Shown here piece after piece: positions 20,679 through 52,443 of a DNA stretch of 64,000 nt; position 1 is the first letter of the stretch, and every line of letters begins with the position of its first letter. The DNA comes from Lepraria neglecta (taxonomy: Eukaryota; Ascomycota; Lecanoromycetes; Lecanorales; Stereocaulaceae). The notes beneath the pieces were generated by a model. The model worked only from the letters and a program-made list of their open reading frames with translations, was not told where the DNA came from and made no database searches. The stretch covers positions 496,001-560,000 of the forward strand of contig CM065651.1 in NCBI GenBank assembly GCA_033220425.1, read 5' to 3'. Position numbers and translations under genes: made by a program.

Positions 20679-21016
20679 TACGGCTTAGCTTCCCGCTATT
20701 ACTATACTACTATATATAAAGGTATTCAAAGACGTGAAGTAGTTATATTACTAGTATAGTATAGGTAATTCTATATTAGAACTAATTACTAAGGATCCTT
20801 AGGAAAGAAGTAGATAGATCGCTCCTTAAGCTTCTTTCTACGGGTAATATATAGCCGCTATTAGGCAGCTAGCGCACTACTAAGAGCCTAGCTCCTAATA
20901 GCTACCAAGTCGGTCAAATATCATCCCGATCCACGCTAGCGCTCCGCGTACTAGGAGATATCGGAATAGCTTTACTAATAAAGTAGACCCCTTCTAATAT
21001 AATAGTTAGTATTATA
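20679..21016 (-). repeat. Family B LTR, partial, reverse orientation
   Basis: 338 bp matching the first three quarters of 11375-11826 in reverse complement. Its right edge (TATAATACT read on the minus strand) is an LTR terminus followed by GTACG, the target-site duplication. Its left edge is the junction with copy 3. Confidence 0.8.
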
Positions 21017-21804: not shown

Positions 21805-22557
21805 CAAGTGAGTGCCCGTAATCTTCACAGAAGATTACCGTAAAAACGGCTATATCTCGCTTATTTTATACTCGATTTAGAAGATTTAAGGGGAATTAAA
21901 AGGCCCTCTATTTATAGTATATTTTTTATATATAAAGTTAAGCCCTAATCCTAATAGGGCAAAACTTATTAAGGATTTAGTATATTAGTACGTCGGGGGC
22001 GGCTGCGGGGGTAGCTTCAGGGAAGTCCGTAGGCAAAAACATGTTTTTTGAGCTTTCCTTAGCCAAACCTTAGCCAAATTTCAAAATTCGAACGGCGTTG
22101 GAAAGCGCATGCTTGGTTCCAAAACTTATGAAATCATAATGATATCGTATAACGTATGTGGCGCGGGGCATTGCTGCGAAGAAGTTGCAGTGCGCATTCA
22201 ACTTTTGATATTCCAGGGTCCGGGGTGCCAAGCTCAATGCTTGGCATTTGCCACCGAGCTCGCGCTGCCTGCAAAACATGGCGAAAACGCTTCTTTTAGT
22301 CATAACTATTGCGTAAATAGGCCGATTCTAAAAATTCTTGATGCGCAAGCAAGCGTATACAAGCGCATGCTTGGTTCCAAAACTTATGAAATCATCTCGA
22401 TATTATATAGTATATATAGCGCGGGGCATTACTGCGAAGAAGTGCGTAGCGGATTCAACTACAGTTTGATAGTTAATACCAAGCATCCTATAACTACCTA
22501 ATTTAGTATTAGTTACCTAAATAGGTATTAAATACTATTCTATTATTAGAAGAAAGA
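21805..22557 (-). mobile_element. Non-autonomous Helitron-like element H2
   Basis: 753-bp relative of H1 with the same termini (minus strand: TCTTTCTTC ... ACTTG) and the same 9-bp-arm hairpin at 21818-21838. The empty site is visible at 17195-17210 of copy 3. The flanks here join as CTA|TAT with no base duplicated or lost, confirming A|T insertion. It is shorter than H1 because it has fewer internal direct repeats (near 22070 and 22300-22460). Confidence 0.8.
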
Positions 22558-24751
22558 TAGGGGAGCTATAGAATCGGCTTAGTAAAGCAAAGATATTTAC
22601 TAAACTAGATCTTAGAGGCGTATATAATATAATTTAGATAAAAGAAGGCGAAGAATAGAAAACTACCTTCCGAACGAGATATAGCTACTATAAATACCTA
22701 GTAATACTATTTAGACTTACTAACGCACTAGCGACCTGCTAAATACTTATTAATAATATTATACGAGTATATTTAGATCGAATAGCGATAGCGTACCTCG
22801 ATAATATACTAATTTATTCTAAGAATAAGGAAGAATATATTAAGTATATATAGAATATCCTTAGATATCTATCGTAAGTAAAACTTCTCCTTAAACTAGA
22901 AAAGTACGAATTTCATCGATAGTCGATGGAATTTCTAGGATTTATAGTTAGTATAGAAGGTATTAGTATAAGCCTAGAGAAAATCAAAGCTATAGTAGAA
23001 TAGCCTATACTATAGGACGTTAAAGTAGTACAAAGCTTCTTAGGATTTGCTAATTTTAATAGGAAATTTATCGAAGGCTACTTAAAGAAAGTACTACCTC
23101 TAATAGATATTATAAAGAAGGATATCGGATTTATATAGGGAAAAGACTAATAGAAATTATTCGATATATTAAAGAAAGTATATACGAATCTACTAGTACT
23201 CTATACCTTTTAGGCTAACGAACCGGCCCGTATTAAAATAGATGCCTCGGATCTTATAATTAGAGTATACCTATATTAAATAAAAGACTAAAAATAGTAC
23301 CTAGTTACTTACTATTTAAGGAAGATATTAGTAGTAGAATAGAACTATAATATACACGACAAGGAACTACTTATCGTAGTTTATATATTATAGAATTAGT
23401 AAATATATATAGAAAGCTACTCGGATCTAACTATCTTTATAGATTATAAGAATCTTCTTAACTTTATAATAATAAAAGAATTAAATAGAAGATAAGTTTA
23501 ATAGTTAGAGCTATTAGGTAATATAAGTTTAAGATAATCTATACTCTAGCGAAAGATAATAGTCGAGTAGATACCCTTAATAGACGATCGGACTATATAG
23601 TAGAAAAGAATATTATAGAATAACTAATTCTAAATAAGGAAACGGACGGATTATTAGTACTATACTAGGTATTAGCTATAATCCTTTATATATTAGGATC
23701 TAATATAATTAATAAGATTATAAAGGCCTATAATAATAATATATTTATAATAAATCTAAGGAAGGATTAATAAGATTTAGTATTACTTAAATACTAGGAT
23801 AAAATCTACTTACCTGATATATACGTCGAAGAAGTAATTAGGGATTACTATAACGACCTTTTATAAGGTTACCTAGGAGTCTCTAAGATAATAGAACTTC
23901 TAGAACGAGGATATACGGCGCCGAAGCTTCGAGCGCGTATTAAATAATATATTAAAGAATATATCGAGTACTAGTAAAATAAAGCGATACGATATACTAA
24001 ATACGAATAAATATAATTTACTTCTATACTAGGATTACTATAGGATAATATTATAATAGACTTTATAGTTAAACTACTATCTTTAAAGGAACTAGCTACG
24101 TAGGATACCTTTAATTCAATTATAGTTATTATAGATAACTAACGAAGTATATAATTATAATACTATTCAAAGAAACCTATAAGGTAGATTAGTTAGTATT
24201 CGTACTACTCGATAAGCTAATAAGAGATTATAGTATACCTAAATCGATAATATTCGATAGAGATAAATTATTTACTTCTAACTACTAGAGAACGCTTATA
24301 GTAGTAATTAGAACTAAACTTCGGATATTAACGGCGTATTACCTAAAAACTAATAGATAAATAGAATATATAAATTAAATAATAGAAGTATATTTAAGAT
24401 ATTATATAAACTAGAAATAGGATAACTAGATCTTACTACTTCTAATAGTATAACTAGCGTATAACGATAAGAGGTTAGATATAATAGAACTAACCCTATT
24501 CTTTACTAACTACGGAAAGAATATAAATATATTTCTAGATCTAAGAGAAGGACCGGATATAGAAAAAGCTTTAGTTAAGGCGAAAGAGCTAAGGAATTTA
24601 TATAAGGAGATATAAAGGTCTATTAAAAGCTTAAATAATAAGTTAAGGGAATAGGTTAATAAAAATAGAAAGAATATTCCTTAGCTAAAAGAGGGGGATA
24701 AAGTATACCTCCTAATAAAAAATATAAGAACGACGAGACTAAATAGGAAAC

Positions 24752-26180
24752 TATTACGATACCGTCTAGAGTTAAGTTATAGAGGTGAAATAGACTAGGA
24801 TATCGAATCTAAGGAGGAAAACTATATAGGGCGAGCGAAGGATCTATATAGGTAGTAACCCCTAAGCTCGGCCCGAAGGTCCGATAGGACTGACTAGGAG
24901 GCTACGAGATACGCCTATAAAATCACCCCCCTCTCTAACAAGGCATCGACCGCGATACCTACAGCTATCCTTTGCCTCTAAAACCCTCCTATATCTCTAC
25001 GGCGGCGGCGATATCAAACGGATCGATTTAGCTATATAGTAGTAGCTACTAGGGCCGAAAAGGCGCGCTGCAGATCAAGCGCGATATTGAGCAAAAGTGT
25101 AGCCGAATTTGAATCGATCGAGGCATTCGAAAACATGCCCTAAACTTGGTGGCGTTCCTGATGCTTGGCGCTCATCACGTGATCTAACCCTGCTAGCCAA
25201 TACTGATATATATCTATATACTCCATCGCAATCTATCCTATATAGTCTACCAAGTTTCCTAGCTCTTGCCCCGGCTCAGTATTGCTATTACCGGCCAAGT
25301 CATCCTAGTCCAGCGTTGCCATCGCCTTATAGGGATCGCGATCGTAGATTAAATAGTAGGAAGGGGCTATTAAGTAGTAGGCGGACGAATTAAATATATT
25401 GAGGATCGTTAACACGGTTGTCGATAATACTATTAAAGTAGGCTTACTAGGTAGTACCATTGCAGCAGGCTCACTATTTGGCTTGTCGGTTAGATTATTA
25501 TAGTTATAGACGGGGTAGAGCTCAAACGAGATATAATTAACGAATTATCCTGATTGTTGTACTTTGCCGTTCAAGCAGGCTTACTATTACTAGTGCCGTT
25601 CAAGTAGGCTTACTATTACTAGTTGTAGAGGTGCTATTATAGCAGGCTCACTCTAGTAGGTACTTACTGCCGTCTCTAGTAATTCCGTTCTAGTCTCTTA
25701 TCGGTACTATTATAGCAGGCTCACTCTAGTAGATACTTACTACCGTCTCTAGTGATTCTATTCTAGTCTCTTATCGATACCATTAGAGTAGGCTTACTAT
25801 CGGGGGCGTTTTGGTATGGAGGAGTCCTTAGGTTGCTTAGGATTCTATACCGTCGTAGCTACTTTATTTTAACTCGCAGTTATAACTAGTATAAGTATTC
25901 GGCTATTCTTTTAACTCACGTGCCTTTATAAGTGCTACGGTTATTTAAAGTCGCCCGCGCGACCGTACCTTATTTAACATCGCCGGTCAATGATAGAGAT
26001 TCAATATAATATCACGGTATCGTCTAGAGTCAAGTTATAGGGGTGGAATAGACTAGGATATCGAATCTAAGGAGGAAAACTATATAGGGCGAGCGAAGGA
26101 TCTATATAGGTAGTAACCCCTGAGCTCGGCCCGAAGGTCCGATAGGGCTGACTAGGAGGCTGCGAGGTACGCCTATAATA
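24752..26180 (+). mobile_element. TRIM-type LTR element, 1429 bp
   Basis: Two 171-bp direct terminal repeats (24752-24922 and 26010-26180) flank 1087 bp of interior. The element is bordered by a perfect 5-bp target duplication, GAAAC, at 24747-24751 and 26181-26185. LTRs begin TATTACG/TATCACG and end ATAATA/ATAAAA, consistent with original TG...CA ends. No gag or pol domain is recognisable, and the size fits terminal-repeat retrotransposons in miniature. It is much less RIP-worn than its host element, so it is a late arrival. A short open frame at 25109-25393 has no recognisable similarity. Confidence 0.85.
25437..25808 (+). repeat. Seven copies of a 12-bp motif AGYAGGCTYACT
   Basis: Copies start at 25437, 25464, 25574, 25603, 25641, 25714 and 25797 inside the TRIM interior. 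Spacing is irregular (27-110 bp). Two are preceded by CCGTTCA. Two more copies (27714 and 27741) lie in the related block downstream. Confidence 0.8.
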
Positions 26181-26608
26181 GAAACTAGATTATATTAAAG
26201 TCGAACTATTCTTAATTAAATAGGTAAAAGGACTAGTTAACTATAAACTCTAACTACTATCTAATACTAAGGTATATCCGATATTCTATATCTTACTCTT
26301 AGAGCTAATAGACCCTAAAATACTATTATAAGAGATATTCTATTATAATATTAAAGAAGAAATAGAGTATAAGGTTAAGAGGATCCTAGATAGAAGAAAT
26401 TAGTTCTATCTAGTTAAATAGAAAGAGTATAATAAAACGGAGAATACCTAGGAACCTCTTAGGAACCTTACGGGGAACTATAGAGAATATCTATAAGAGT
26501 TCTATCGGAGATAAGAAAAGACTAGTCGAAACTCTCGGGGGCTTCTAGCCTATCGGGGAAATCGAATTATTCGGACGAGATATTAAATAGTAAGTCGTCG
26601 GAAGATAT

Positions 26609-26786
26609 TGTCACGGGCTGGCCATATATACGTATACCTTATTGGGTCTAGCTTAGAGGCTTACCGTCGCATACCTATATAGATTCCTCGCGCGTCTATA
26701 TAGCCTTCTTTCCTTAGTATTAGTATTTTATCTATATTACCTCATTGATAGCTACCGTTCTACTACTACTAGATCAGGCCGTGATA
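26609..26786. repeat. Solo LTR, 178 bp
   Basis: Starts TGTCACGGGC and ends GGCCGTGATA (from GTGACA), with near-inverted termini and a perfect 5-bp target duplication GATAT (26604-26608 and 26787-26791). Absent from the aligned position in copy 3, so it is a clean insertion. Size and termini group it with the other ~170-190-bp LTRs in the window. Confidence 0.8.
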
Positions 26787-27259
26787 GATATAGGAACGAT
26801 ATATTAGTCTTTCTCTAGCTCTTAGACGTTCTATACCTCTTAGTCTACTAACCTCTTCTTCTCCTCCTCGGTTTTCTCGTATTATATTTAAAGACGTACT
26901 AACTTATTTTAAAGATATATAGACTCTTCTATTAACCTTTGAAGCTCGTCGCGTATAGTTTTTAATTAAGCCTACGCTTTCTTTTATTCGGATTTGATAC
27001 GGTATATTTCAAGGAGCGATACTATAAGGTTATATTTCCTACTACCAATAACGTAGTTTGAATATCGTTTAGAGTTAGTATCTATTAAATACTACTTCCT
27101 AGTAGCGATGTATCGAGAATAGAGACGTATTACTATTTCGGATAACTCGCTAGCTAGTTTCTTTTTACGGATGGCTAGGTTAGATAATCGTTTAGTATAG
27201 CGAGGTAGTATAAAGGATAGATAGTTTCTCGAGACGAGAAATCTAGAGAGGGGAGCTAG

Positions 27260-27677
27260 TATTAGAACTACCGGTTCTAATAGGACTATCGCGGAGGACG
27301 AGGCGCTTCGGATAGGATATCTTAGATGGATAGTCGCGGCGCTTAGCGATACGATCATCTTCATTAGGATACTAGATCGCTTTAATCGCAATACTTAATA
27401 GTACGATCAGTTATAATTATAGAAGGCTTGGCGGACTTTCGTATATCTATATATATAGAGTACTATTTACTACTTAGAGCATCGTGCTTAACTTCCTATT
27501 TACTTATTTACTATATACGATAGATTTCTTAGGCTAGGCACTAAATATATATTATCTAATTATATACTAGACCCGCTTAGTATTACTTGAAGCCTACTTC
27601 ACCTCTTGTTAGTTATACTTCTATCTCTATTAAGAATCAATCTATAAATACGATATCGGAACGCACGGTTCGTAACA
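27260..27677 (+). repeat. Family A LTR, 3' end of copy 2
   Basis: Follows GAGAGGGGAGCTAG, begins TATTAG and ends CGTAACA. It shares the middle and 3' half with the other family A LTRs but has a divergent first ~150 bp, making it a third LTR subtype. Confidence 0.75.
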
Positions 27678-28746
27678 ATAGGGCGCTTCTCTAGACGAAT
27701 CGGGATACCGTTTAAATAGGCTCACTAGAGGTGCCGTTCAAGTAGGCTTACTAGTTTCCACGTCGTTTATTTAGATTCGCTAACTAGCTTACGAGCCCTA
27801 CCGTTTATTTAACCTCGCTAACAAGCGTACGAGGGCGAGGGTTAGACGGTAGATAAGATTTTATTCGTAGTACTATCGGTATTAAATAGGACCTCTAGAT
27901 ATTCGCTTACCAAGAGTATACTATAGTAGGTAGATAGACTTATCCTAGATCGACCGATTCTATATAGCTAGTATACTACTACTACTTACTAGGAGGTACT
28001 AAAAATACTCTCTATCTCAACGCCGACAATACCTTTTACCCGTAGCGATATTAGTTTCTACTCGGCCGTCGCGAGTATATAGGCTTTATATCGCCAGTCA
28101 ACGATAGAGATTCTATATACTATCAAGGGCCGGCCTTGTCGTGGCATTATATAGAGCGAGTCGATATAGATATAGATAACTAGTATATTAATACTAAGGA
28201 GGAAAACTATATAGAGCGAGCGAAGGATCTATATAGGTAGTAACCCTTGAGCTCGGCCCGAAGGCCCGATAGGGCTAACTAGAAGGCTGCGAGGTACGTC
28301 TATAATATCACCTCTCTCTCTAACAAGATATCGACCGCGATATCTAGAGCTATTCTTTACCTCTAAACCTCTTCTATATCCTAGCCTACGGCGGCGGCGA
28401 TATCAAACGAATCGATTTGGCTATATAGTAGTAGCCGTCGGGGCCGAAAAGGCGCGCTATAGATCAAGCGCGATACTAAGTAAAAATGTAGTCGAATTTG
28501 AATCGATCGAGGCATTCGAAAATATGCTCTAAACTTGGTAGCGTTCCTGATACTTAGTATTTACTACGTGATCTCAACCCTACCAGCTACGTTAATATAT
28601 ATCTATATACTCTACCGCGATATCCTATATATATAGCCTACTAAGTTTCCTAGCTCTTGCCCTAGCTCGATATTACTATTACCGACTAAATCTACCTAAT
28701 CTAGTATTGCTATTACTATCGTAGGAATCGTAATCTTATAGGTTAA
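27678..28746 (+). mobile_element. TRIM-related block with one internal LTR
   Basis: An LTR of about 187 bp (28121-28307) is flanked on the left by sequence like the 3' interior of the 24752 TRIM (the AGYAGGCTYACT motifs, then the conserved end near 28095-28115) and on the right by sequence like its 5' interior (28308-28746, matching 24923-25380). The order interior-LTR-interior is what two tandem elements sharing one LTR would leave. The first half of the LTR diverges from the TRIM copy, so it is a sister subfamily. RIP-worn. Confidence 0.65.
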
Positions 28747-29135
28747 TATTAGAGGCCTACCTAGAGCGAGTCGATAGGGGTGTAATATAACTAGGAAAAT
28801 ATATCTAAAGAGAGAAAGATAGATATATAAAGGCTACGCGTCTTGAAGACGCGCCAAGCCGCTAGCTATAAGCGGTTATCGAACGTTCGACAACTATACT
28901 CTATACTCTATATACTAGTACAAGTAGTAAGTAAAGGCCAAGCCGTAATAGTTAAATAGTAGAGAGAAAAGGGAAGCTATTAAGCGGCCGAAGACGATAA
29001 TATGGAATCTAGAGGAGGAAACTATATATAGAGGAGCTAAAGGGGTAATGACAATAGCTACCAAGTCGTCTAGCCTAACGAGGCTAGCGGTGGAAGATTA
29101 TGGAAGGTCACCGCGTGTAGGCTAGGGCCGTAACA
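28747..29135 (+). repeat. LTR-like repeat, 389 bp
   Basis: Its two ends match the solo LTR at 35754-35933 (start TATTAGAGGCCT against TGTCAGGGGCCT; both end with CGTAACA). The middle holds about 200 bp extra, including a short hairpin around GTCTTGAAGAC near 28840. It ends exactly where a transposase fragment starts. No matching target duplication is visible. Confidence 0.6.
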
Positions 29136-29285
29136 CTTGGATAGCTGTCGGCCTTGGTATCGGCGTTTTAAGGTTGTACTATTAACGGTATATTTTCTAG
29201 CGATAGCCTTAAAATTAGGCTTCTCTTGCTGATATAAATTAGTAACTACGAGATCAATACGAGCGTCGTGGGTAGAGCAATCCAT
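29136..29285 (-). pseudogene. Transposase N-terminus with psq/pogo-type HTH
   Basis: About 50 codons from an ATG at 29285, with a helix-turn-helix of the psq type (IARKYTVNSTTLKRRYQG) typical of the N-terminus of Fot1/pogo transposases. The remainder is replaced by the LTR-like repeat at 29135. GC-rich short direct repeats (GGTGTCG..GGGCCGG, 29311-29350) lie upstream, possibly the end of the same transposon. This is a fragment, unlikely to function. Confidence 0.6.
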
Positions 29286-29352
29286 AATTGAAAATTTGAT
29301 GATTTTTTTGTATAGGGTGTCGCTGGGCCGGAGGTGTCGTCGGGCCGGGATA

Positions 29353-29440
29353 TCGTAGATCCGAAAAACCTGTTGTAGCGTGGTTTTTTAGTTATCGATT
29401 GGCGCGCGTATATACTAAAATCTAAACAAAGTCGGCTTTT
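29353..29440 (+). repeat. Left terminal inverted repeat of the Tc1-type transposon
   Basis: Starts TCGTAGATCCGAAAAACCTG and pairs with 33309-33396 over about 88 bp, differing at four sites that fit RIP. Confidence 0.85.
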
Positions 29441-29559
29441 GTATATAAATCGATTATCGTACCAAATATACCTATAAAAAGCTTCCTAAACAGGCAATTA
29501 TAAGGCTTCTAGCGTAGTATTACTGTCGCCCCTAGGGTTATAGCCCTATCTGCCACCCC

Positions 29560-32010
29560 GCCGACGTCCAACCTCGCTGTTAACCCCTACTATACCTCTA
29601 GAAACCACCCTCCCCCCCTATAACGACTCGCCGCCGTGGTCTCCCTATACTACCGTCTACAGCACTACCCTCTGCGACTCCGAAGCCCCTAGTAGCCCGC
29701 AAAAAGCCTGCCCCCAAGCCTACCCCCAGGCGTCCAAGCAAAGCGCCCAAACCAAAGAGGCCTCTACTAGCCAAATTACAAAAGGCGCCCTTATCTAAAT
29801 CTACTACCGCTGTCGCCGCCGCTGAATAGAGATACTAGAATATTTAGATTAAGCAGGATAATAAAGAAGACGCTATAGCTACTACGTAGAAAGAAGCCCG
29901 CAGGCTAGAGCACCAGAGCTTTTATAAGAAATACTACTATACCCTAAATATAGACTTATAGAATACCTCTAGAGAACTTAGCTCTCTAGAGCTATCGCCT
30001 AGGGGGAAGGAGCGCTATTAGAAGGTATATACTAAGGAAGAATCAAGACGAGTAGCTATAGCTCGCACTATTATATAGGACGAATTCAAAGTAGTTAGTT
30101 ATTCGGTGGAATAGTAGGTCTATTTCGAGAAGATTGAGCTATTTAGAGACTCTACTATATATACTATAGGAGCCGCGGGACGCCTAGATTAGGAAGCCTA
30201 GTATAATAGGCTTTATCTAATAGGTCGGGAGTATATAGATAGCGAGAGTAAGAGCTACTATATAGTTATAATCAGAGTAGATTTAAAGGTAGATAATATA
30301 GCTGGCAAATCTACTAGTACTATAAATATGAAAGATAGCGAGCTAGACTCTATTTAGTAGAAGAAGGTCCTGAGTCTAATATAGCTTAGATACGAAAGTC
30401 GTCCGAAGAAGAATATAATACTAACTTTTAAAGTCGGTGTTAAATTCTTCTTTACTCGTACTTATAACGGTATTCTTCTAGCGTCTATACTACTATCTAT
30501 ACCTCTAATATAGTCGCAAATAAAGGTATAGTAGTCCTAGGCTAAAACACTGCGGGTAGATCTACTTAAGACTCAATAATAAGCTTTGGTCGATTAGTAT
30601 AAGCTTGCGTTGATAGCAGCCTATAAATATACTTCGCCCAGTTATCCAAATAGCGCCGGTAGATAGTACTTACTATAGGATAGTAAGTATTATACTCTCG
30701 ATGGATCTTATATTCGTACCTAGGTTTAATATATCAACACCAATACTACTATACTAAGTACCCCTCCTCCTAATTTCCATATTAATACAAGGCTAAGACG
30801 TTAGATTCCCTACGGGACCAAGGATCGCAAGAAGTAGGAGGAGGTCCTACCGCCAATAATACCTGCCCTAGTAGCTATAGATATTATAGATAAGAAGTAT
30901 ATAGATAGAGCTTTTAAGCTAGTAACGCTGAAGCTTATAGGAAAGCTTATTAGCGACGATATTCCAGCTTCACCGATACCTTATCTAACGTTAACGCCAG
31001 TGCTAGTACTAGCGTCTACGCCTACTCGTATACCATCTCCTCTACTATTACCGCGTCCTCGCTACACGGCGTCTTCTTCTAGGTCACGCGCTTTATCGTA
31101 TCTTCCTAACGCTGACGTATTAAGGCCAAGTAGCCCTATAACTACTAAAGATTGGGCTGGATATATCTTATGGCTTTGCAATATAGAAAATACCTAGACA
31201 GGGGCAAAAAAAGAAGCTTTTAAGCACGCTAGACATGTTCTAGAAGAAGCTTATATATTAATTTAGTCTATCCAATAGGAAATAAAGGGCTTAGAGTATA
31301 AGGCTTATTAGGATTCTATAGATATTAAACCTGGAGTTAGGTATTATCTTGCTCGACTTACTAGTAAATATCAGGCTTATAAGAAGCAGAAATCTGCCAG
31401 TTATTAATATCAATCGTTCTGCTTTTATTCTACCGTTAATTTCTATTTATAAGTAGTATTTTGGCGGTTAAATATATAGTAATCTTTTAGCTATACGGCT
31501 TTCTCCGCCGCTAAATATTATAGATTTTAGCTTCTACGCTATCGTTTTATTATATAAGATTTAGTAGTACTTAGTTATTAAATACACGGGTAATCTATAA
31601 CTAGGTGAAATAATACGCTAGAATTCGTGTTTTTTTGGCTTAGTAGTTAGAGAAGGCTATATAGAGCATAATCAATTAATTTTACTAATATCTTTACTTT
31701 AGTAGGTACTATAAAAGCTTTACCGTTTAATATAATATCCTTACCGCCACTATCTACTTAGGTCTAGGTATCTGCGTCTTAAGTAACGACTTAGGATATA
31801 ACGAGGAAGCTATTATCGCCGTAGTACTATACGCTAAAGAACTATAGAGTAGATAACGATTATAAGTCAGGTAGTAGCGATAAAGACGATATGCTAGAGA
31901 CTTAGCGGCCCCTTAGCGAGAATACGATTATATAGAGTATCGAGACTTAGTAGTAGAAGCGAGAAAAAGCAGGCTACGAGTTATATCGACGTCAATAAGA
32001 TAATTATATA
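29560..32010 (+). pseudogene. Second gene of the Tc1-type transposon, unknown function
   Basis: A long, decayed coding region that keeps codon-like structure between numerous in-frame TAG/TAA, mostly where CAG/CAA/TGG would be expected after RIP. The N-terminal part (about 29690-29820) is rich in Lys and Pro (KKPAPKPTPRR), followed by Ala/Gln-rich and Lys-rich stretches. A Pro/Ser-rich segment lies near 30960-31150, and the last part is Tyr/Gln-rich. I recognise no catalytic motif or family. It could be a DNA-binding accessory gene of the element, a captured host gene or a nested element. It converges on the transposase, leaving little space at 32010-32100. Boundaries are approximate. Confidence 0.45.
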
Positions 32011-32099
32011 TATATATATATATATATCTTATTTGCTAACTACCAATTAAAAGTACTTTTCTAATTACAATTCTATTAAGCCCGCCGTCTATATATAGA

Positions 32100-33212
32100 T
32101 CTCTCTACTATTTAGCTATTTTTTACCGCCCTTTATAATATATACCCGCTACTCGAAATAGTACCCTATAGTTAGTAAGGTCGCCCTGCGCCCTTACCGT
32201 ATTATTTAAAAATCTCTTAAAGTCTACCGGCTTAGGACTATATATATTAATAAGATAACTATTCCTTTTAAGCTACCCCTTAAGGATAGTAAATAAGGTC
32301 TTAATAGGGTTATAGTCTAGTAAGTACGGTAGAAGATAAGCTAATATAACGCCTGCAGCCTCGTATATATCTACTAATTCCTACGAGTAGTAGATAGATA
32401 TATTATTAAGGATAAGTACTGAATAAGGCCCTCCTAGTACTATAGGGGTATACTATAGGAGAACCTTATTATATATAAAATTATTGAATAAAGTCTCAGT
32501 AAGAGAACTATAGATAGTAGTCTAGGTAATATATCTATCTACCGTATATATAGGAAGAACTAACCACCTCTGTAATCTTTTCAATAGCGTATTTACCCCT
32601 ACCTCTACACTAAAACGAGACTAGCCAAACTTCCTATCAGCGGTACGCTTATAGGATACGGTCTTATCTAGAAATATTAGCTAATTTACGGTCCAGCTAT
32701 ATAGCTTTACTTTCTATTTATCGCGCTCGCGCTAGTCTCGCTAAGAAGCTCAGTAGGAAGCCTATCTAGACGTTAATAAGTAAATTAGGCTATACCTTAT
32801 ATTAATAGGAGGCGAGGCTTACTTTTTTATATAACTAATTATATCGCCGTAGGGTGTTATGAATAGTAGACTCGCCGAGTATTAGACTATATATATCGTA
32901 TAGAAAATATACTATTTCAAAGAGATAAGACAGTGGCTTTTCATCTAGCCAATTAGTTAGGGCTTTCTCTATTACTTTAGTAAGAAGGCGGGGACAGCCC
33001 TATACTATATATGGGGCAACGACCGTCCCCTACGCCTCCAGGTTCCGCTTCATCTTGGAGATCTGCTGTTGAGTCACACTAGTACGGTCTACTATATCTT
33101 TGACTGTATTACTGCGGTCGAGATAGTGCTCGATATCGAAACGTGTCTGAGAGCCTAGTAGGGGTGGTATTTTGGCGGCGGCGAGGGTGGTAGGCAGCGA
33201 TAGCGCGGGCAA
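32100..33212 (-). pseudogene. DDE_3 (Tc1-like) transposase, RIP-damaged
   Basis: The ATG at 33212 opens an intact stretch of 60 codons with a helix-turn-helix (TVKDIVDRTSVTQQQISKMK). Downstream on the same strand come the DDE landmarks of fungal Tc1-like transposases: the first Asp in a FLD..S-type block near 32660, the second in an ILDNxSIxxS block near 32420, and the acidic NPI[E] block near 32300, inside LxPYxxDxNPI. The 3' two thirds contain many RIP-type stops, so the gene cannot be translated as it stands. Length would be near 370 codons, normal for the family. TA flanks and inverted repeats agree with this assignment. Confidence 0.75.
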
Positions 33213-33396: not shown

Positions 33397-33541
33397 TAAC
33401 TTCTAGGGCTGACGGTTGAGGGGTGAACCCTTCTATCGGCAACAGTAGACAACTCACAGGGAAAACCGAATGGCAAATGTCTGGGCACCTGAAGACTACG
33501 ATGTCACTTTTTCTCTCACTTTGCTCATCTCTACAATAATC

Positions 33542-35218
33542 TTAGGCGTGACCGTCTTCAGCTGCTGCTGCTGCTGCTTTGGGAACACTGGTCGAAGAGG
33601 CGATAGCCTTCACGGCCAGCGCAGTTGTAACGCCGCGATTTCCAATTTTCACGCCGGTCGACCCATATCTGTATATCCACCCAGATTCCCATCCTCCGTC
33701 TTGACACTGTTGACATAGTAAGGTATGGCGATCCACGCTGCACTCTATACCCAGCGAATCGCATGCAAGTACCCGCATTGCCAGGTCTAGAGCGCTTCCA
33801 CTTTCTCCAACTCGTTCCTGCAATCGCGACTTGAGAAGTGGACCTATTGTCGCCTGGAGATGGGCGTTGTTGTTTGAAGACTGCAAGAGACGTCCAAAGA
33901 AACCGAGACAGCAGTCAGAAGATGGATAGTAGCGGGTACCGTGTATGTAGGTCCGATGCAAGAGCACATCATGAATATGCTGTAGCGTGCGCGTGAGTTG
34001 ATAGCCGCGACCAAAGTGGTAAAAACACGCCAGTACATTTGCAGTAACGACTGTATCAGTTCGAGGCTTTTCTCGATCGAAATATGTCTATCATAATTCT
34101 GAGTCAGTGAGTGATTCACCAGCTTGATGGCGCTTTGGTGACATACCAAGACCGTGCCATCAGAATTTACATATTCACCCATTTCATCTAATATCGATGT
34201 GATGATCTCAGGATGTTCCGGTCGTAGGACAGTAAGGGCCAGAGAGGTGGTATCAAGGTCGTCAGGGAAGTATCCCCCTGGAACAAGTGTGACCTTTCCT
34301 ATTCATCGATGCTTTGTTAACTCCTTGACAACAAGGCTTGTATGACACTATCCAGAGACAAGAATGCTCACCCGCGAAAAAGTTCCAGGTCCGTTGGGAG
34401 TTCCACCTCACGTTGACAAGGTTTCTACCAAAAGTGTTCAGCTTCCTGAAAAGTTCACTCTTCACTATTTCATTTAGGACTCACTGATCTTGGGTCGCTT
34501 CTAGTATTAGCAGCTCTGAAAAACTGTCTTGCACGACAACACCACCGTCAGTGATGGAATCGAACTGCTTCGCGTTCCGGTATAGATACTCGTAGCCTCT
34601 TGCAACTGGATCACCCAATAGAGTTTGCAAAGTGTGAACAGTCGAGTTATCGAAAAGGATGCCTCTAATCCCCAGACGATCTGCTGCAAGCACATTTTCT
34701 TGTTTGTCGTCTATAAAGATAACTTGTTCGGGAGCTAGTTTGATTTCTTCCAGAACATAGCTGAAGAAATCGGGGTCTGGTTTGCGCATGCCAACCGCTC
34801 CTGAAGTAAACACCTGATCGAAAAGAGACCAATCCATCTTTTGCGACAAGGCAGCAAAATCCTCCCGAGCCACGTTTGACATGGCGTATACGTTGACCAA
34901 AGCGCTTTTTCTCAAGTGCTTGAGAAATGTCACTACCGTGTCTTCAGGTTGTAAAGACTCGCGGGCTTGCGCAAAAGCTTCAACTACCTGCGAAGCCTCA
35001 ATAGAGAATTCTTGAGCGATCTGCTCATAGCATGCATCTTGTTTAAGACGACCACATTCATATTCGAGCCAGGTAGGTGAGGATAATATCTTTCGAAATA
35101 TTCCAGCCGATATAGCAGTACTTGTGTTGGGCGACCACGTGAATAGGACATCGCCCAGGTCGAAGATGATCCCTCTTACAGGGACTTGAACAGATATCCT
35201 TTTCATGGCAATGCACAA
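33542..35218 (-). CDS. HAD-type sesquiterpene cyclase (AstC/DrtB-like)
   Basis: Predicted 494-residue protein in four exons: 35218-34485, 34445-34372, 34277-34147 and 34087-33542 (introns 39, 94 and 59 bp; the first is unusually short). Residues 1-245 form a HAD-like domain with FDLGD (Asp20), MSN (113-115), Lys146 in GMRKPDP, and FIDDKQEN, which gives the DDxxE motif at 170-174. The second half is a terpene-cyclase beta/gamma-like domain with DLDTT at 276-280 (the DxDTT motif), a TYFDREKPR block, GTRYYPS and a GGWESGWIYRYG block. This architecture is that of fungal AstC and DrtB, which cyclise farnesyl diphosphate by class II protonation to drimane-type products. The C-terminus ends in a GCT-repeat-coded Ala run. 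It is divergent from the P450 gene. The main uncertainty is the product, and whether the HAD domain also removes phosphate. Confidence 0.85.
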
Positions 35219-35494
35219 TTAATTCACTAGTTAGGCTGTGACAGTCCACACTTGCGCTTATATAGAGCCACGTTGGTGGATATCCTGTGGCTAAGCCGTT
35301 AACAGCTCAACTTGCAGAAATGCCCAAGTTGGTATCAAACTGTAGAACTCGTACACGGCACCTTGATGATCACTTGACTTGCATATTGAGGCAGACTTTT
35401 GCCATTTCATAGGCTTTTGTACAGATTCAGCCATTTACTGGAGCCACTGGCAATTGCCCCCCTAGACTTAGTTATTAGGAGCGGTGAGAAAATA

Positions 35495-35644
35495 AGTAAA
35501 TGTCACCTGCCTAGTTAGTTGAGTCTGCAGGCCGCATGCTGCAAAGTGAATGTCACCTGCCTAACTAGTCGTGTCTGCAGGCAGCATGCCGCAAAGTAAA
35601 TCTCACCTGCCTAATTAGTCGTGTCTGCAGGCAGCATGCCGCAG
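35495..35644 (+). repeat. Three tandem 50-bp repeats
   Basis: Units begin at 35495, 35545 and 35595, exactly 50 bp apart, with only a few base differences. Each contains TCACCTGCCTA, GTCTGCAGGC and GCATGC. Position in a divergent promoter suggests iterated binding sites. Confidence 0.9.
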
Positions 35645-35753
35645 CCCTAATTTTGTTTGTACCAAGGTCTTCATGTACCCAATACTTATGAGACGCAGTG
35701 GAGTCTTACGTACCCCTCACATGGTTTAGCTTTCTCCATTGCTGACAGGTATA

Positions 35754-35933
35754 TGTCAGGGGCCTGCCTAGAGCGGGTCGATAAGGGTGTTGTAATATGA
35801 CTAGGATATTGAATCTAAAGGAGGAAACTATGTACAGAGGAGCTGAAGGGGCAACAAGAGTAGCTGTCAAGCCGTCTAGCCAAACAGAGCTAGCGGTAGA
35901 AGACCATGGAAGGTCACCGCCAGGACCGTAACA
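35754..35933 (+). repeat. Solo LTR, 180 bp
   Basis: Starts TGTCAGGGGCC, ends CGTAACA, with near-matching 5-bp flanks (GTATA at 35749-35753, GTGTA at 35934-35938). It matches the ends of 28747-29135 and the second half of the TRIM LTRs. It shows no RIP wear, so it is recent or escaped RIP through small size. It ends 117 bp before the P450 start codon. Confidence 0.8.
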
Positions 35934-36050
35934 GTGTATTAGCTCTGATTATACAACCTTTCATATAGAGCTTTTCAGAAACGTCAGCACTGATCCTCTA
36001 CTATCAGGAAGTCATTCCCTCTTCTGCAATTTATATTGGCCTGTATTGAG

Positions 36051-37804
36051 ATGAGTTCCAGCGTGTTTCTTGAGGCTGCGAGACATTTTCGACTTTCCAT
36101 GTCGAGAGCGACATTAATCTGTCTCCTCGTATGATTATTGTCGCATCTATTACTTCCACTGTTTAGAGCACTAACCTTTCTCATTTGTAGGGTGTCTTTG
36201 CACTCGCATTCAAAGTCTTCTACAATATCTACCTCCACCGTCTGTCAACGTTTAAGGGCCCAAAGTATCTCATAGCCTCTGATATACCACTATCAGTGCT
36301 CCAGCTCCGTGGAACAAGTCATCATGCACTGAAAAGAGCTCATGAGCAGTATGGTGATGTCGTTCGAATTGGACCTTCAACACTTTCATTTATTAGTGCG
36401 TCAGCATGGAATGATATCTACGGCTATCGGCGCGGCCGCGCAGTTTTACCAAAAGACCCTCAATTCTACAATGAGATGCTTCTTGACAAAAACACCATTA
36501 CCATGGCAAGCGATGAAGATGCCGTCCCGATCCGAAAAGCTATAAATCCAGCCTTCTCGCATGAAGCTCTGTTAGAACAGGAGCCAATGATAAAAAGTCA
36601 TATCCAACGTCTAATGATGCAGCTTACCAAGACCAGCTACGACGATCGCCGCAACGAACATTGCACCGTCGACCTCCACAAATGGCTAGTCTTTTCCATG
36701 TTCGATATTAACAGCGACTTCGTCTTCGGTGAGGACATGGGCTGCGTAGCCAGCGGCTCGTTCCACGAATGGGTAAAGTTCGTCATCGATTATTTTTACG
36801 CTGCCACGCTCCTTCACCAGTGCTTTAAATTTCCGCTCCTCAATCGACTATTAGCACTGTGTATTCCCAAATCAGTTAGAGAACAACACCGACGGCATAA
36901 TGAGGCATCTCTGCAGCGAGTTCGCAGTCGTATGGATACAAAGATTGATCGCCCGGATTTCATGCATCACTTTGTACGGCATGCTAAGAAAGAGGGACTT
37001 TCCACACGTACTATCGAAGCACAGGCTTCCGTCGTTATCCTAGCAGGCAGTGAGACAACGTCTATTGCGCTTACCGCTGCTGTGTATCACATTCTCAGCA
37101 ATTCCCACGTCTACGAGAGACTTTGCAAGGAGATCCGTGGAGCCTTTACAACGGAAGAGGATATAGCGCTTCCTAATGTGCTCTCCAAGTTGCCGTATCT
37201 CGATGCTGTTGTGCAAGAGACTCTACGTATTCACACGCCACTTGCCAATGGCTTTACCAGAGTCGTTCCAGATGCAAAGGGAGCTATGATCAGCGGAAGT
37301 TGGGTTCCGCAAGGAGTGAGTAGAGCAAGTTACTTTCATTTTCCCTCAAGTTCACCTATTCTACGCTATTCTTAATATCGGCTTGGTTCTTTTGGTTGAT
37401 ATTGCTCACATGTTTTGAACCACCCAGACGGTCGTTACCATCAACCATTATTGCTCTAATACTTCAACACGAAACTTTCGCGAACCATTCTCGTTCATCC
37501 CGGACCGATGGCTTGGTGATCCGGCGTATGATAATGACAAGAAGGATGTTGTGCAGCCATTCTCAGTCGGACCGAGAAATTGTCCTGGCAAGGTGTAAGT
37601 AAAATCTCCTGTACTCTGAAAGATATCGTCTTAAAGACCTTGCGCAGGTTTGCTCTTAACAACATCAAGCTGATACTGACGCATCTGATTTGGACCTTCG
37701 ATATGAAGCTTGATGAAGGGGCGAAAGATTGGGAAATAGGGCAGAAAATCTATAACGGATGGTTTCAACCCGCGCTACCTGTTTTGTTGAAGAGGCGGCT
37801 TTAG
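36051..37804 (+). CDS. Cytochrome P450 monooxygenase
   Basis: Predicted 508 residues in four exons: 36051-36128, 36191-37315, 37428-37594 and 37648-37804. All splice sites are GT-AG and the frames agree. The N-terminus has a membrane anchor (about residues 20-45). The I-helix has AGSETT at 311-316, the K-helix has ETLR at 369-372, the PERF-like block is FIPDRW near 424-429, and the haem loop [11 protein letters not shown] places the ligand Cys near 453. Length and motifs are those of a complete ER-bound fungal class II P450. Position next to a sesquiterpene cyclase suggests that it oxidises the terpene scaffold. The start was chosen because it supplies the anchor and keeps exon 1 in phase with exon 2. 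Confidence 0.9.
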
Positions 37805-38898
37805 GTAGAAGACTCAATCAACGACGTCTTAGGATATGTTTGAAGAAGGGTCTGCGAGTGACGATGACTAATGCTTGTGATCTATATGCAAGTTGATTCC
37901 AACACATTCCTCGAAGCTTACTCACGTAGGTCAAAAGGTACCGTTCCATTTTTTTGACCTACGTGAGTCCTTCTTCTCATTCAATGAACCTCGGTTACAT
38001 AGACATCTGACATTAGCATGTATGTACCACCATTTACTGCAATCCAAGTCCTCTCAGAAGGCTCAACAGCGCGGAGAGGCTTAGCGGCCTCAATGAAGGC
38101 GGGTAGGCATGCGGTGTGAATAAGGCACCACGCTGACTGATATGCACCTTGTGGTTATACATTGGTTCGATAGCTGATGTACTCTGGACATATGCTCCAT
38201 GGCCTCACTTAAAACATGGATTGGAAATAAATTTCCAGTATTCCGTGCAGCTCCGGTTGGCTGGCAGCCATCCGAACTCCACGGGTCCATTTCAATGCAT
38301 CGGAAATTCGGGGATAAGGCTAACGGCTATGGCGATCATGGTAAATGTGATGCGTGTGGTGTGTGGTCTGCTGCATGTTGTCAATCAAGAGCGGATGGCT
38401 AACACAGCCCTTCTTCTTATGAGGCCTCACCTCCGTAAGCGTACCTTCTCTTCCCTCATTCACAGCTGCAAGCCACAATTTGCATTTTAGTTGCAATCAC
38501 TCACTCATCTAACCCCTATCAACCCCCACATCTGCATAGTAGTGGCCTTGCAGCCGCCCTGTAATGGCCTGCATTCGTGGACGTAGCTGGAAGGGTTGCA
38601 CCGGGGCGTGATAGAATGCAGCCCGCTAAGCGCTCGGGAAGTTCTCATCCAGGCATCCGCCTAGGCATACTTGGCTGGCTGCATTCTATTGGAAGAGCCG
38701 AGGTAAGTCTGGACCGTGTTGCATAAGACCAATTTTCGCTTGCGATTATCTTCGGCGGTCTTACTGATGAGCTATGTATCGTTGTTGAGATAGTCAATAG
38801 AAAAGTAGGAAACAAATTGCCTACCAGAATACAATATAACTTCAAGCTATTCATTCTACGAATACCGCCACATCTTGTATCTAGATTGCACAATTATC
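37805..38898. other. Intergenic region between P450 and dehydrogenase
   Basis: No supported gene. Overlapping short frames near 38150-38490 show no recognisable motif. It holds the 17-bp inverted repeat at 37920-37968 and a second, looser pair of 13-bp inverted repeats (ATAGAATGCAGCC at 38611-38623 and its complement at 38677-38689). Confidence 0.6.
37920..37968. terminator. 17-bp perfect inverted repeat downstream of the P450
   Basis: Arms 37920-37936 (ACTCACGTAGGTCAAAA) and 37952-37968 pair perfectly around a 15-base loop, 115 bp past the P450 stop codon. A role in 3'-end formation is inferred from position only. It could equally be a binding palindrome or the core of a tiny transposon. 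Confidence 0.4.
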
Positions 38899-40074
38899 AT
38901 GTGGCAAGTCTTCAGACAGTTCTTCTTCATTCCTACGCCGCCTATCACTGGCCTCAATTGTCCTGATCAAACGGCCCGAGTATGTCTAACATAGCTCTTT
39001 GGCACAAGCTCTATTCAATTAATAACGCACTTCTAGGTCTTTATCGTGACCGGGGGATACGGTGGTGTCGGACTTGAGCTTTGCCAGATCCTTTACGAAC
39101 ATAATGCTACCGTTTACATAGCTGGCCGCTCGCAATCAAAGGCTTCCAATGCCATTTCCAACATAAAAAGAGCCTTACCAAAAAGTTCCGGCCGTCTTGA
39201 ATTCCTGTTCATCGACTTAATGGACTCGTCCACCATCAAACCTAGCGTCGACGCTTTTTTGGCGCAACAGGAGCGGCTTGACGTCCTTGTGAACAATGCC
39301 GGCGTAAGTCGGATCCTGACGGCCCAGAACTAGGTTCAAAGATACGAATGTACTAACTCGTTGAATGCAACGCGTATAGGTTATGTTAAAGGGTAGTAAT
39401 GATCCCCAACACAACAAAGTGCACATCGGCACAAACTGCGTCGGTCCATGCCTCCTGTACAAGTTATTCCTTCCGATTCTCACGAAAACCGCTGCGTCCT
39501 CCCCAACAGGCAGCGTCCGCGTCATATGGGCCGGGTCTATCGCAATCGAAGTGAATTCGCCTAGGCCGGGCGGAATGGAAGTGGATGACACTGGCCAACC
39601 AATGGATATGGACGAACTGTCCAGCTACGGACAAAGCAAAGTGGGTAATGTGTTCCTGGCGCGAACACATGCCAAGACAACACCGCAGACGGGTGTGGTA
39701 CACGCTTCTTTCAATCCGGGCAATCTTCGGACTGACCTACAGCGGCACTGGCATGGTCTTGATCTCACGTTCATGGTAAGTACCCTACCTTCTTCTCAAG
39801 CTCCAGAACACTCTCTGTGGTTTGCGGCTAATGTCTACTGAAGAAGAAATTCTTGTTCTATCCGGCTATCAATGGCGCATACACTGAGCTCTGGGCGGCG
39901 CTTGCGCCCGAGCTGACGCCCGCACGAAGTGGAGCGTACATTCACCCGTGGGGGCGGTTTGGAGATCTTCCGGCAGGCATTGAAGCATCCTTGAAGGAAC
40001 CATCGGAGGGAGGAACAGGCCTGGCGGCCAAATTTATGTCATGGTGTGAAAAGCAGACAGAACCTTATCTTTGA
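38899..40074 (+). CDS. Short-chain dehydrogenase/reductase (SDR)
   Basis: Predicted 323 residues in four exons: 38899-38979, 39037-39303, 39380-39775 and 39847-40074, with consistent phase 0 junctions. The Rossmann NAD(P) motif TGGYGGVG is at 32-39 and NNAG at 113-116. The catalytic set is Ser169 (WAGSIAIE) with Tyr199 and Lys203 in SYGQSK. Similarity is to classical fungal SDRs of the retinol dehydrogenase/WW-oxidoreductase type. The last intron ends in a tandem GAAGAAG acceptor, so use of either AG would add or remove one residue. Likely role in the cluster: oxidising an alcohol placed by the P450, inferred from context. Confidence 0.85.
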
Positions 40075-41821
40075 ACTGGCAGTTATTGAACCACATGGAT
40101 CTATTCTGTAATCGTAATATTCATAAATCAGGATTCTCCTGGTGGAGTGGCGCCTGGGCAGCACGATGATCGAATAGTTGATGTTGTAGTCAGCTCGTAG
40201 CGCTACAGAAGACATGCGGATGGGCAATAGTGAAGATGGTTGAAGTTGACATTAATAACAGTTGTCTCTGCTGCGTTTACGCTGAAAGTGCAGCCTGGCA
40301 TTGCCGGAGGGGCCAAGCTGTTACGTGAAGGGGGAAGGCGCCGCATTACCAAATTTTGTGTGTGCGCCGTATTCTATTTTGTGTGAGCGTCGCCGTGCGG
40401 ACTTCTTCCTAAAAAGTGGATATTCTGTGCGTCGCAGGGCAGCGGAGTTCCGAAGTGTTACATGCTGATGCTTAGATATGCGTCTTGCTCATTCGTGGGC
40501 ACTAGAGAAACAAGACTCCCAGCTGATTCGACAGGATTATGTGTAGTTATCGCTTCATGGTTGTGACGGAACGCCGGTTACCCGTGATGTTCCAGCTGAT
40601 CATTACCCTTGGAGGTAGACCTTGCGAGGCAGCTTGCATCGCAGAAAATGTCTCAAAGGTGTTGGTGGGTCGCAGCCAAAATCTGTTGGTGGGGCTATAG
40701 GCGTTTCGCGACAGTCTACCCTTTTCGCCTTTTCGGACCGACTAGTTACTACGTGCCGCTGACAAAGCTGAAGCGAGAACGCTTTGACAAATTTTGATAC
40801 GAACTTTCCGAATGTGCGACTGAAGCTCCGGTGTGGATGGGTAAGAATCCTCGAAGTCTACCTGCTTTGCATGATGCCAGCTCGGGCTAGATGCTGCCTC
40901 AATCGTGCATATCACATACGGCAAGTCCCAGCCACTCGAAACCTGTCATTCGCAGCTATAGACCCAAGAATCTGCCGATTGCTACCATACTTGCAGTGTG
41001 CCAATCTCAACAGTCTAGGGCGTTTCGATGTGGATACGCGGATCACGAACGTGCCCTCTTCTTTGTCCGCCAATGACCCGGCGCCAGGAACTCGTGGCAG
41101 TGGATTGACCGCACTTTCTTTCCTTCCGTTACTAGTAATATCGTGGGATGCACATTACTCGCTCATCATGAACCACTGCGACAGTGTCATGCAAGCACGG
41201 GATGAACTTCCAAAACGAAGCACCAATTTAACAGTAGAGTGGAGGAAGGCAAGCGTTGAAAAATTTCGATGCAGCAGCATCCAATAGAACTCAGAGTAAG
41301 CAAACCATAAACTGCTACCTACCAGCCGAAATTCAAAGCCGGTGAGAAGGTCCCTTGGATTATCAATGCCAATAATAAACCGGCAACAGATGCAAGCTTT
41401 GCCATACGACCACATGCATAAGAAAATTCCTAATCGCCTGCATACTGAATATACCGCTGATCGAGGTGAGCTTTGCCTTTTAACGGCATACATGAGACGC
41501 AACACGGAGTAGCCGAAAAGTTGCTCATAGTAGAGGATCTTCCAAATCTTTGCCTTTTTGGCACTCCGAGGAACCCAGCTGCTATGTAAGATGATGGCGT
41601 AGTAGTTCTCAATGGGCGATCATGCAGACAGGTACTGGAAGCATATGCAAGACAGGTAGATCTGATTGGCTACATGATAGGTCTTTACATGGTAGTTCAA
41701 ACTTTAGATACAGGCCGCTTTGCGACCACCGGCTTTGATTTACAGATTCCTGTTTCAAAGCGGCAACATATTTAAAAAGCTTGCAATCGGGTATTTTTCT
41801 GATCTATGTCGCTGTGTAGAC
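40075..41821. other. Intergenic region, no supported gene
   Basis: Contains a 167-codon plus-strand frame (40784-41287) and a 116-codon minus-strand frame (41155-41505). Neither shows a recognisable domain or exon-like extension. Composition is normal, without RIP bias. Confidence 0.5.
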
Positions 41822-42656
41822 ATGGACGCCTACTTGAAATCACCCACTACTACAGAATTTGTTGTCGTAGCGGCGGTTTTCGAAGGGCTCGCTACCTTTT
41901 TCGTAGCCCTACGCTTTCACCTACGCGTCAAGCTCAAGCAGGGTGTCAAGTGGGATGACTGGTTAGCTTTGCTTAGTTTGGTGAGCAAAACTGCGTGAAT
42001 CGACTCTTACAACAGCATTGACTTAAGTTGACCAGACTGCCTCGTGGGGTTATGCCATCGCTATCTTTATCGTAGCCAGCCAGATTGGAGTGGACGTCGT
42101 TAAGGTGGATCCGCTTATAGCGGCTAAGAAATATGTTGAGGTTAGTTATCCAGATGCAGAGACTCGGGTCGCTTATTTCTGATGCTTCTCTACAGGCCGT
42201 TGCCATCGGCTCTATCCTTTTGATATTCGTCATTGTTCCGATCAAGATCTCAGTCCTTCTGTTCTACAAGCGCATCTTCACCACCCAACTCTTCAAACGG
42301 TGCATCTGGGTTACTATAAGTATTGTGTTGGCCTGGGGAGTTGCCAGCCTCGTGGTATGTTCTGATCGATCTATCAGTGCACTATTTCCGAAAATCTAAT
42401 TTACCAAGGATGGCTGACCGAATAATGCACAACAGGCACAATTATTGATTGCTGATCCGGTGCCATCGGCCGCCTGGGAAGACCTCGAAAATCCTAAATA
42501 TCGATTCAATTACTTCAAGTTTGGGCTGTCTGTTCCCGTTCTAAGTATCATTTTCGATGGCATCATCTTGCTCTTCCCATTGCCCCCTCTTCGAAAACTG
42601 CAAATGCCGAATAAGCGAAAGATTGCTATCATTGGCACATTCTGGCTTGGTTCATT
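41822..42656 (+). pseudogene. Fungal rhodopsin-like membrane protein, 3' end missing
   Basis: Four exons fit well: 41822-41980, 42036-42140, 42196-42354 and 42436-42656. They encode about 212 residues with five hydrophobic segments and the hallmarks of the fungal rhodopsin-domain (PTH11-like) family: R-x-R around the first helix (LRFHLRVK), WDDWLA, WGYA, FYKRIF, and PLPPLRKLQMPNKRK before the last seen helix (IIGTFWLGS). Family members continue with a further helix and a cytoplasmic tail. Here the fourth donor (GTAAGT at 42657) leads only to a GC-rich repeat tract, so the gene looks truncated. In its intact form such a protein sits in the plasma membrane, and its role in metabolite clusters is generally unclear. 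Confidence 0.7.
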
Positions 42657-43379
42657 GTAAGTCATTCGGTCTTCTCGATGTTCTTTCCTTATCTTTCCTC
42701 ATAGAGAATACCCTAGTAGACATGATCACGAGGATTTTTTCCCCCTTCCACTTCTAGCCTCGCGGGTGAGCAGCGGCCGCTTTAAGGTGAGCCGCGGGTG
42801 AGCGGCCCTGAGCCGCGCCTGAGCTGAGGTGAGCCCCCAGGGTCAATGCAGGGGCAGTGCAGGGGCACTGTAGGGGCAGTGCAGGGGCGCAGCACGCCGG
42901 GGCCAGAAATGGCTGCCTAGAGCCCGGCTTCAATTGCCTCGTTGTATAAAGAACGCGGATTGTTTGTGTGCAGGTGAGAAGGCGCCCGATTCGAGATGGT
43001 CTCGGCGCCGTCTTAGGCGGCGTTCTCACTTGTTATTTTTGGTGCCTGAGATGTGGAAGCGATCTAACGGTATTGACCGGTAATTTTCAAAACGATTCGA
43101 GGATTGTCTCTGAGCGTTACCTAGTGCTGCCTAGAGTGCTGCTGCCTAAAGTGCTGCCTAGAGTGCTGCCTAAATACGCAAATTTGGAGATTCCTATGTT
43201 TCAGATCATCCCTAAGCTACATGGGGCAGAGCAGGGGGTTGCTGCTTAGACTCAGCCGCTTACCAGCCTTTGACTAGCTTTGCCCGCCTCCTCACCTCAA
43301 TTATCAAGCTTTATTATAAGGTTGGTATCGCCGGTTTGGGCAAAAGCGCGGCGCCTCGGGCCGTCCCGCCACATTGTCA
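42657..43379. other. GC-rich low-complexity tract with two tandem arrays
   Basis: An abrupt change of composition at about 42755. It contains an 11-bp array (GCAGGGGCAST, about four units, 42847-42890), a 12-15-bp array (GTGCTGCCTARA, about four units, 43125-43175), and GC-rich imperfect inverted sequences around 42970-43030. No coding potential is evident. It probably represents an unclassified repeat or recombination scar that cut off the membrane-protein gene. Confidence 0.55.
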
Positions 43380-52421: not shown

Positions 52422-52443
52422 ATCGCTTACTACACTACGTTGC

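Follow-up and report, generated by a model that had tools for sequence, protein, structure and literature searches.

Drimane sesquiterpenes are formed in the closest described systems by HAD-like terpene cyclases, namely AstC from the astellolide cluster of Aspergillus oryzae, the albicanoyl monophosphate synthase AacA of Aspergillus aculeatus, the drimenol-forming ascomycete enzyme DrtB from A. calidoustus, and the bacterial drimenol synthase AsDMS of Aquimarina spongiae. The gene studied here encodes an enzyme of this kind and lies in a stretch of 64,000 nucleotides of Lepraria neglecta (GCA_033220425.1, contig CM065651.1, positions 496,001 to 560,000; the window in what follows, to which all positions refer). 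Together with a cytochrome P450 and a short-chain dehydrogenase/reductase (SDR), it probably constitutes a compact three-gene drimane-type sesquiterpene cluster with a bifunctional HAD-TCbeta cyclase.

The astellolide (ast) cluster combines its HAD-like cyclase with separate phosphatases, four P450s, an ester former resembling nonribosomal peptide synthetases (NRPS-like), an acetyltransferase, a transporter, and the SDR AstE, and thus includes the cyclase, P450, and SDR types of the present trio (PMC5024094). In the nanangenine cluster, a single HAD-like enzyme is present and the conserved genes include a P450 and an SDR, as in the trio, while the section Usti clusters carry a highly reducing polyketide synthase and other genes that are not seen at this locus (PMC6880815). 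The HAD site of AstC is degenerate and hydrolytically dead, whereas AacA removes one phosphate from the cyclized pyrophosphate, ending at the monophosphate in vitro and at the alcohol in yeast (PMC13244436). In AsDMS, D43 is the nucleophile and K171 its activator (PMC12365925). A description of the present locus was not found among the listed titles and abstract openings of open PMC papers.

The three-gene core occupies positions 33542-40075, with the cyclase on the minus strand, the P450 and the SDR on the plus strand, and all frames intact. The cyclase exons are located at 35206-34485, 34424-34372, 34298-34147, and 34087-33542 (stop included), contain no internal stop, and are separated by introns of 60, 73, and 59 bp, all with GT-AG borders. 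An earlier model of 506 amino acids (aa) was dropped because its introns 1 and 3 had weaker splice sites, and the new sites erase two insertions relative to AstC. The 506-aa model served as the query for the solved-structure search and Pfam, and the 490-aa model for the identities, the NCBIfam scan, and the HAD-domain tree. A search against characterized AstC, proposed as a check in an earlier sequence-only reading of this DNA, gave a full-length match (PDB 22tz, E 7.7e-99, query residues 9-488) that is the best among solved structures and excludes chance. It is followed by the isolated AstC cyclase domain (22ty, E 1.8e-56) and AsDMS (9mhs, E 7.1e-51; 9m7d, E 3.4e-50), and the plain phosphatase YihX ranks only after these HAD-TC structures (E 2.6e-10). 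Aligned with AstC, the protein is identical at 189 of 459 positions (41.2%; HAD part 36.5%, cyclase part 44.2%), and aligned with AsDMS, at 135 of 407 (33.2%, the AsDMS linker being absent from the aligned copy). The protein shares with AstC (PDB 22tz, 22ty, 22ua) the full-length fusion of HAD and cyclase domains, the DxDTT acid/base pair, and most of the aromatic pocket. Judged by its sequence, the cyclase is thus a further member of the known HAD-TCbeta (HAD-like terpene cyclase) family.

This membership rests on the full-length AstC match and not on the HAD-domain tree. Among the 23 rows of that tree, the cyclase groups with AstC (support 90/70) and both group with a second Lepraria locus (91/56), none of these nodes being starred, and seven Flavobacteriaceae rows form a group of their own (100/99). 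A long-branched plain HAD groups beside the fungal rows, so that the HAD-TC label does not form a single clade and requires two changes, one change being enough in 2% of the bootstrap trees. The second Lepraria locus, C4:2360179-2361201 on the minus strand, is the one other place in the genome (42,023,604 bases in 11 contigs) that matches both cyclase halves. It has E at the place of the nucleophile, DIDIN for DxDTT, and a TGA within the frame; the frame also appears to be broken, for which a missed intron could likewise account. It may represent either a decayed gene or one with a different activity. Its neighbours look by eye like ordinary genes, and a competing cluster seems unlikely there. 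Separately, a HAD-TC locus of an uncultured Aquimarina shows a 327-aa frame that joins the HAD part to the C-terminal end of the cyclase, without DxDTT, perhaps owing to a deletion or an assembly fault.

Two acidic motifs have to be told apart in this protein. The class II acid/base motif is DLDTT at residues 272-276. In turn, DDKQE at residues 166-170 corresponds to DDxxE, which the sequence-only reading took for a cyclase motif and which has been named a class I motif in the literature (PMC9128629, PMC6880815, PMC10126200). That interpretation was not borne out, as DDxxE is HAD motif IV and points to a phosphatase function rather than to a class I cyclase. Plain HAD rows without a cyclase match and with a usable frame carry DDxxE in 8 of 13 cases, DDxxD in 3, and DN in 2, figures that prove occurrence in plain HADs and not frequency, since DDxxE was one of the two patterns used to fetch them. 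Therefore, DDxxE is no evidence for a cyclase, unlike DLDTT and the full-length match. The possibility that the protein is just a HAD phosphatase whose resemblance to terpene cyclases comes from chance occurrences of short motifs could appeal to this origin of DDxxE and to the fact that Pfam and NCBIfam give HAD-type families alone (TIGR01509, HAD-IA, is the single one of 21 NCBIfam families to pass its cut-off). However, the alignments of the C-terminal half to the AstC cyclase-domain chain and to AsDMS, in which DLDTT is conserved, already contradict this explanation and leave it with practically no likelihood.

The residues expected of a working HAD site are present, namely the nucleophile D16, the motif II S110, the motif III K142, and the motif IV pair D166/D167, all of them the same in AsDMS and in seven bacterial HAD-TC rows. 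AstC differs at three of these places, with E13, A108, and N166 (alignment numbering) where the cyclase has D16, S110, and D167. In alignment numbering the AstC motif IV reads D165-N166-D167; the text of PMC13244436 lists Glu13, Asp166, and Asp167 for this site, and PMC6880815 describes Asn in place of the second Asp. The residue alignment thus did not reveal in the cyclase the degenerate HAD site that marks the AstC subtype. The site is predicted to be phosphatase-competent, so that one protein should cyclize farnesyl pyrophosphate and remove phosphate, and, by analogy with AacA, the result may be the monophosphate in vitro and the alcohol in yeast. Since the HAD catalytic residues are kept, a separate phosphatase is probably unneeded, and its absence would not be a sign of an incomplete pathway. 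In this respect, the sequence-only reading was right that no separate HAD phosphatase is visible. Its assignment to an AstC/DrtB type is supported as well, although AstC and DrtB are not equivalent, the residues fitting a bifunctional enzyme better than AstC.

The cyclase pocket retains the residues on which AstC depends. Changes at AstC D271, D273, T274, K314, N324, and Y361, as well as Y448A, abolished or nearly abolished activity (PMC13244436), and these places are occupied in the cyclase by D272, D274, T275, K316, N326, Y363, and Y450 (AstC D273 being N in the crystallized mutant). Moreover, Y306, Y357, R443, and G445 of AacA, an enzyme with an active HAD domain, find counterparts in Y311, Y362, R449, and G451, according to the positions named in PMC13244436. 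Y253 and F444 of AacA, which forms albicanol, were examined because DrtB, which forms drimenol, differs there, and the AacA double mutant Y253F/F444Y gave albicanol and drimenol at 2.8:1 (PMC13244436). The corresponding places in the cyclase, compared by named positions, are F256 and Y450, and the cyclase thus fits two AacA/DrtB differences as inferred from PMC13244436. This fit weakly favours drimenol as the scaffold, followed by albicanol or drim-8-en-11-ol. AsDMS has the same HAD catalytic residues and DLDTT, but its selectivity residues Y319, F509, A511, and F518 all differ from F257, Y448, Y450, and I457 of the cyclase.

The two partner genes are intact as well. The P450 is complete, with AGSETT, ETLR, a heme motif, and a hydrophobic N terminus, the first three of which we take by eye to be the I-helix, ExxR, and heme motifs. 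The SDR carries, also by eye, TGGYGGVG, NNAG, and YGQSK, matching the TGxxxGxG, NNAG, and YxxxK motifs. In both genes, introns 2 and 3 can be placed at alternative splice sites without creating a stop, and a few residues could shift. The P450 has no match among solved structures at E ≤ 1e-30, and the SDR has a single one at E ≤ 1e-10 (E 8.3e-11). No NCBIfam family passes its cut-off for the P450 (0 of 4) or, among the best 25 of 150 families, for the SDR. These comparisons thus offered no clue to the function of either enzyme.

The cyclase and the P450 diverge from an intergenic region that is a candidate bidirectional promoter and contains three tandem 50-bp repeats, in each of which CCTGC and GCAGG form an inverted pair. 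This array may be a candidate site for the binding of a regulator. The genome search returned its own copy alone, a non-match elsewhere not being proof of rarity, and its two core words occur with zero mismatch nowhere else in the window and hence not upstream of the SDR. Co-regulation of the SDR through common promoter words was considered and is not supported by the comparison of 9-, 10-, and 11-mers given below.

These arrangements bear on whether the three genes work together. A bifunctional drimane synthase whose P450 and SDR are unrelated neighbours, with no dedicated three-gene pathway, is a doubtful though serious alternative. P450s and SDRs are common, with 77 exon-level P450 rows and 12 SDR rows in the genome (this locus included), and the SDR lacks the repeat array upstream. 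Nevertheless, the cyclase and the P450 are a divergent pair with a common upstream region of 844 bp, neither partner gene has a near copy in the genome (the closest other matches have 36% identity for the P450 and 38% for the SDR), and the combination of cyclase, P450, and SDR recurs in the two published drimane clusters mentioned above (PMC5024094, PMC6880815).

In the favoured three-gene reading, the activity, product, order of steps, dimer, and joint working of the genes that we infer would be as follows. D274 of DLDTT would protonate the terminal double bond of farnesyl pyrophosphate, the chain would fold to the drimane bicycle, and the last proton would be taken by D272. The HAD domain (nucleophile D16, Mg-binding D166/D167, K142, and S110) would then cleave phosphate, probably across a head-to-tail dimer, yielding a drimane alcohol or its monophosphate. 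Subsequently, the P450, held by its hydrophobic N-terminal anchor, would hydroxylate the ring system, and the SDR would turn an alcohol into a carbonyl group (aldehyde or ketone), possibly on the way to a lactone. A fuller version of this reading is held only tentatively, namely that the locus is a minimal self-contained pathway in which a bifunctional HAD-TC with an unusual pyrophosphate pocket (P265, T453), one P450, and one SDR would make an undescribed oxidized drimane, with expression driven by a dedicated bidirectional promoter that carries a threefold array.

Several observations weigh against the favoured reading. Firstly, the case for drimenol consists of two positions and inferred DrtB residues, and albicanol remains the main product of the AacA double mutant. 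Secondly, the cyclase equals AstC at the selectivity positions F257, Y446, Y448, and I455 (AstC numbering), so that drim-8-en-11-ol may be the product instead; at the four positions linked to selectivity in AsDMS and AncC (PMC12365925), the cyclase has F, Y, Y, and I, like AstC, and AncC has F, Y, F, and A. Thirdly, P265 and T453 stand where AstC has its pyrophosphate sensors Q265 and K451, and K39 stands where it has the cross-subunit S35, which speaks against a straight copy of the AstC binding mode; K451A and S35A reduced AstC output (PMC13244436). Fourthly, the SDR has 324 aa versus 261 aa in AstE, and deletion of astE merely lowered astellolides (PMC5024094). Finally, the SDR upstream region has few uncommon words in common with the cyclase/P450 region: 16 9-mers, where controls average 12.6 (12 of 40 reaching 16), 8 10-mers versus 2.5 (5 of 40 reaching 8), and no 11-mers.

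The identity at the four selectivity positions, along with the rank of AstC as the closest solved relative, would also suit an AstC-like enzyme whose HAD domain does not hydrolyze, with a drimane pyrophosphate as product and another phosphatase required. This is quite improbable, given that the cyclase keeps the HAD residues that AstC has lost at three positions.

The left border of the cluster is an AT-rich block that strongly resembles a product of repeat-induced point mutation (RIP). Its composite RIP index exceeds 1 in 14 of the 16 2-kb windows of 1-32000 (lowest value, 0.64), is 0.70 in the mixed window 32001-34000, and turns negative in all 15 windows of 34001-64000. Introns included, the indices of the cyclase, P450, and SDR are -0.48, -0.50, and -0.42, with no sign of RIP leakage into the three genes. 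The gene models, Pfam, and the RIP index thus confirm what the sequence-only reading had described, a HAD-terpene cyclase, a complete P450, and an SDR adjoining a RIP block. A decaying cluster, with genes that are open yet unexpressed beside the block, is rather unlikely and would be compatible with the other readings. The adjoining 33-kb RIP-like block and a gene cut short to the right of the cluster are in its favour, but the three multi-exon genes have intact frames, catalytic motifs, and the negative RIP indices just given. Within the block, a low-complexity tract at 9790-10298, probably a short-unit repeat, encodes Leu-Phe, Ser, Pro-Leu, or Glu runs depending on the frame.

On the right, the truncated gene belongs to a rhodopsin-domain family with 62 exon-level rows in the genome, four of them this gene and 58 others. 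A tblastx comparison of two relatives with 42601-49000 recovered its known last exon and chance-level pieces, and nothing else. About 60 bp past the break starts a GC-rich dispersed repeat with at least 45 other rows in the genome (40 of 62 candidates scored). The sequence-only reading had placed the rhodopsin-like gene with the cluster; its position stands, but an incomplete copy belonging to a large family, next to a dispersed repeat, is an unconvincing member, and we leave it out of the cluster.

A six-frame Pfam scan covered 40050-58900 (E ≤ 0.01; genes split by introns could escape it), and 1-33500 was judged from its 12 open reading frames of at least 100 aa, one of which was scanned with Pfam. 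Within 40050-58900, the scan detected neither domains of other terpene-pathway enzymes, acyltransferases, or transporters nor the ester-forming NRPS-like gene, acetyltransferase, and transporter of the astellolide type, in agreement with the earlier expectation of fewer genes than in the astellolide cluster. Besides the rhodopsin fragment, the scan found an APH-fold gene, FTA2, a Myb-like gene, and one winged-helix match slightly short of its cut-off. Farther right, the open reading frames 53247-55385 and 58705-60027 (minus strand) look alike by eye in a Myb-like part, for which the first has a Pfam match; also by eye, the first shows zinc-knuckle-like repeats and the second C2H2-like motifs.

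Table 1. Features of the window around the HAD-TCbeta cyclase locus of Lepraria neglecta, with the basis of each assignment.
Feature	Position	Strand	Basis
HAD-TCbeta terpene cyclase gene, 490 aa	33542..35206	-	Gene model; AstC match; 41% identity to AstC, 33% to AsDMS
N-terminal HAD phosphatase-like domain, about residues 1-190	34637..35206	-	Pfam PF00702, E 2.2e-12; PF13419, E 2.2e-10
C-terminal terpene cyclase beta-like domain, about residues 191-490, three introns inside	33542..34636	-	Alignment to AstC-TC (22ty) and AsDMS; 44% to AstC
Cytochrome P450, 511 aa, exons 36051-36128, 36191-37315, 37428-37592, 37637-37805	36051..37805	+	Pfam p450, E 1.3e-34, largest exon
Short-chain dehydrogenase/reductase, 324 aa, exons 38899-38979, 39037-39303, 39380-39775, 39844-40075	38899..40075	+	Pfam adh_short, E 1.5e-21
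Divergent cyclase/P450 intergenic region, 844 bp, candidate bidirectional promoter	35207..36050	.	Gene coordinates
Three tandem 50-bp repeats, each with CCTGC-N16-GCAGG	35494..35643	+	86% and 88% to reference copy
RIP-like AT-rich block, left border	1..33000	.	Composite RIP index in 2-kb windows; GC profile
Truncated fungal rhodopsin-domain gene	41823..42656	+	Pfam PF20684 (Fung_rhodopsin), positions 1-182 of 237, E 3.4e-32
GC-rich dispersed repeat, two segments, 3' of truncated rhodopsin-like gene	42717..43293	+	At least 46 genome match rows, including itself

The sources cited here describe few characterized fungal HAD-TC enzymes. The cyclase of L. neglecta combines AstC-like and AacA/DrtB-like pocket residues with a predicted working phosphatase site, and it would thus offer a test of the residues that set the double-bond position and the phosphate state of the product. 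Moreover, the three-gene layout is compact enough for the pathway to be reconstructed in a laboratory host.

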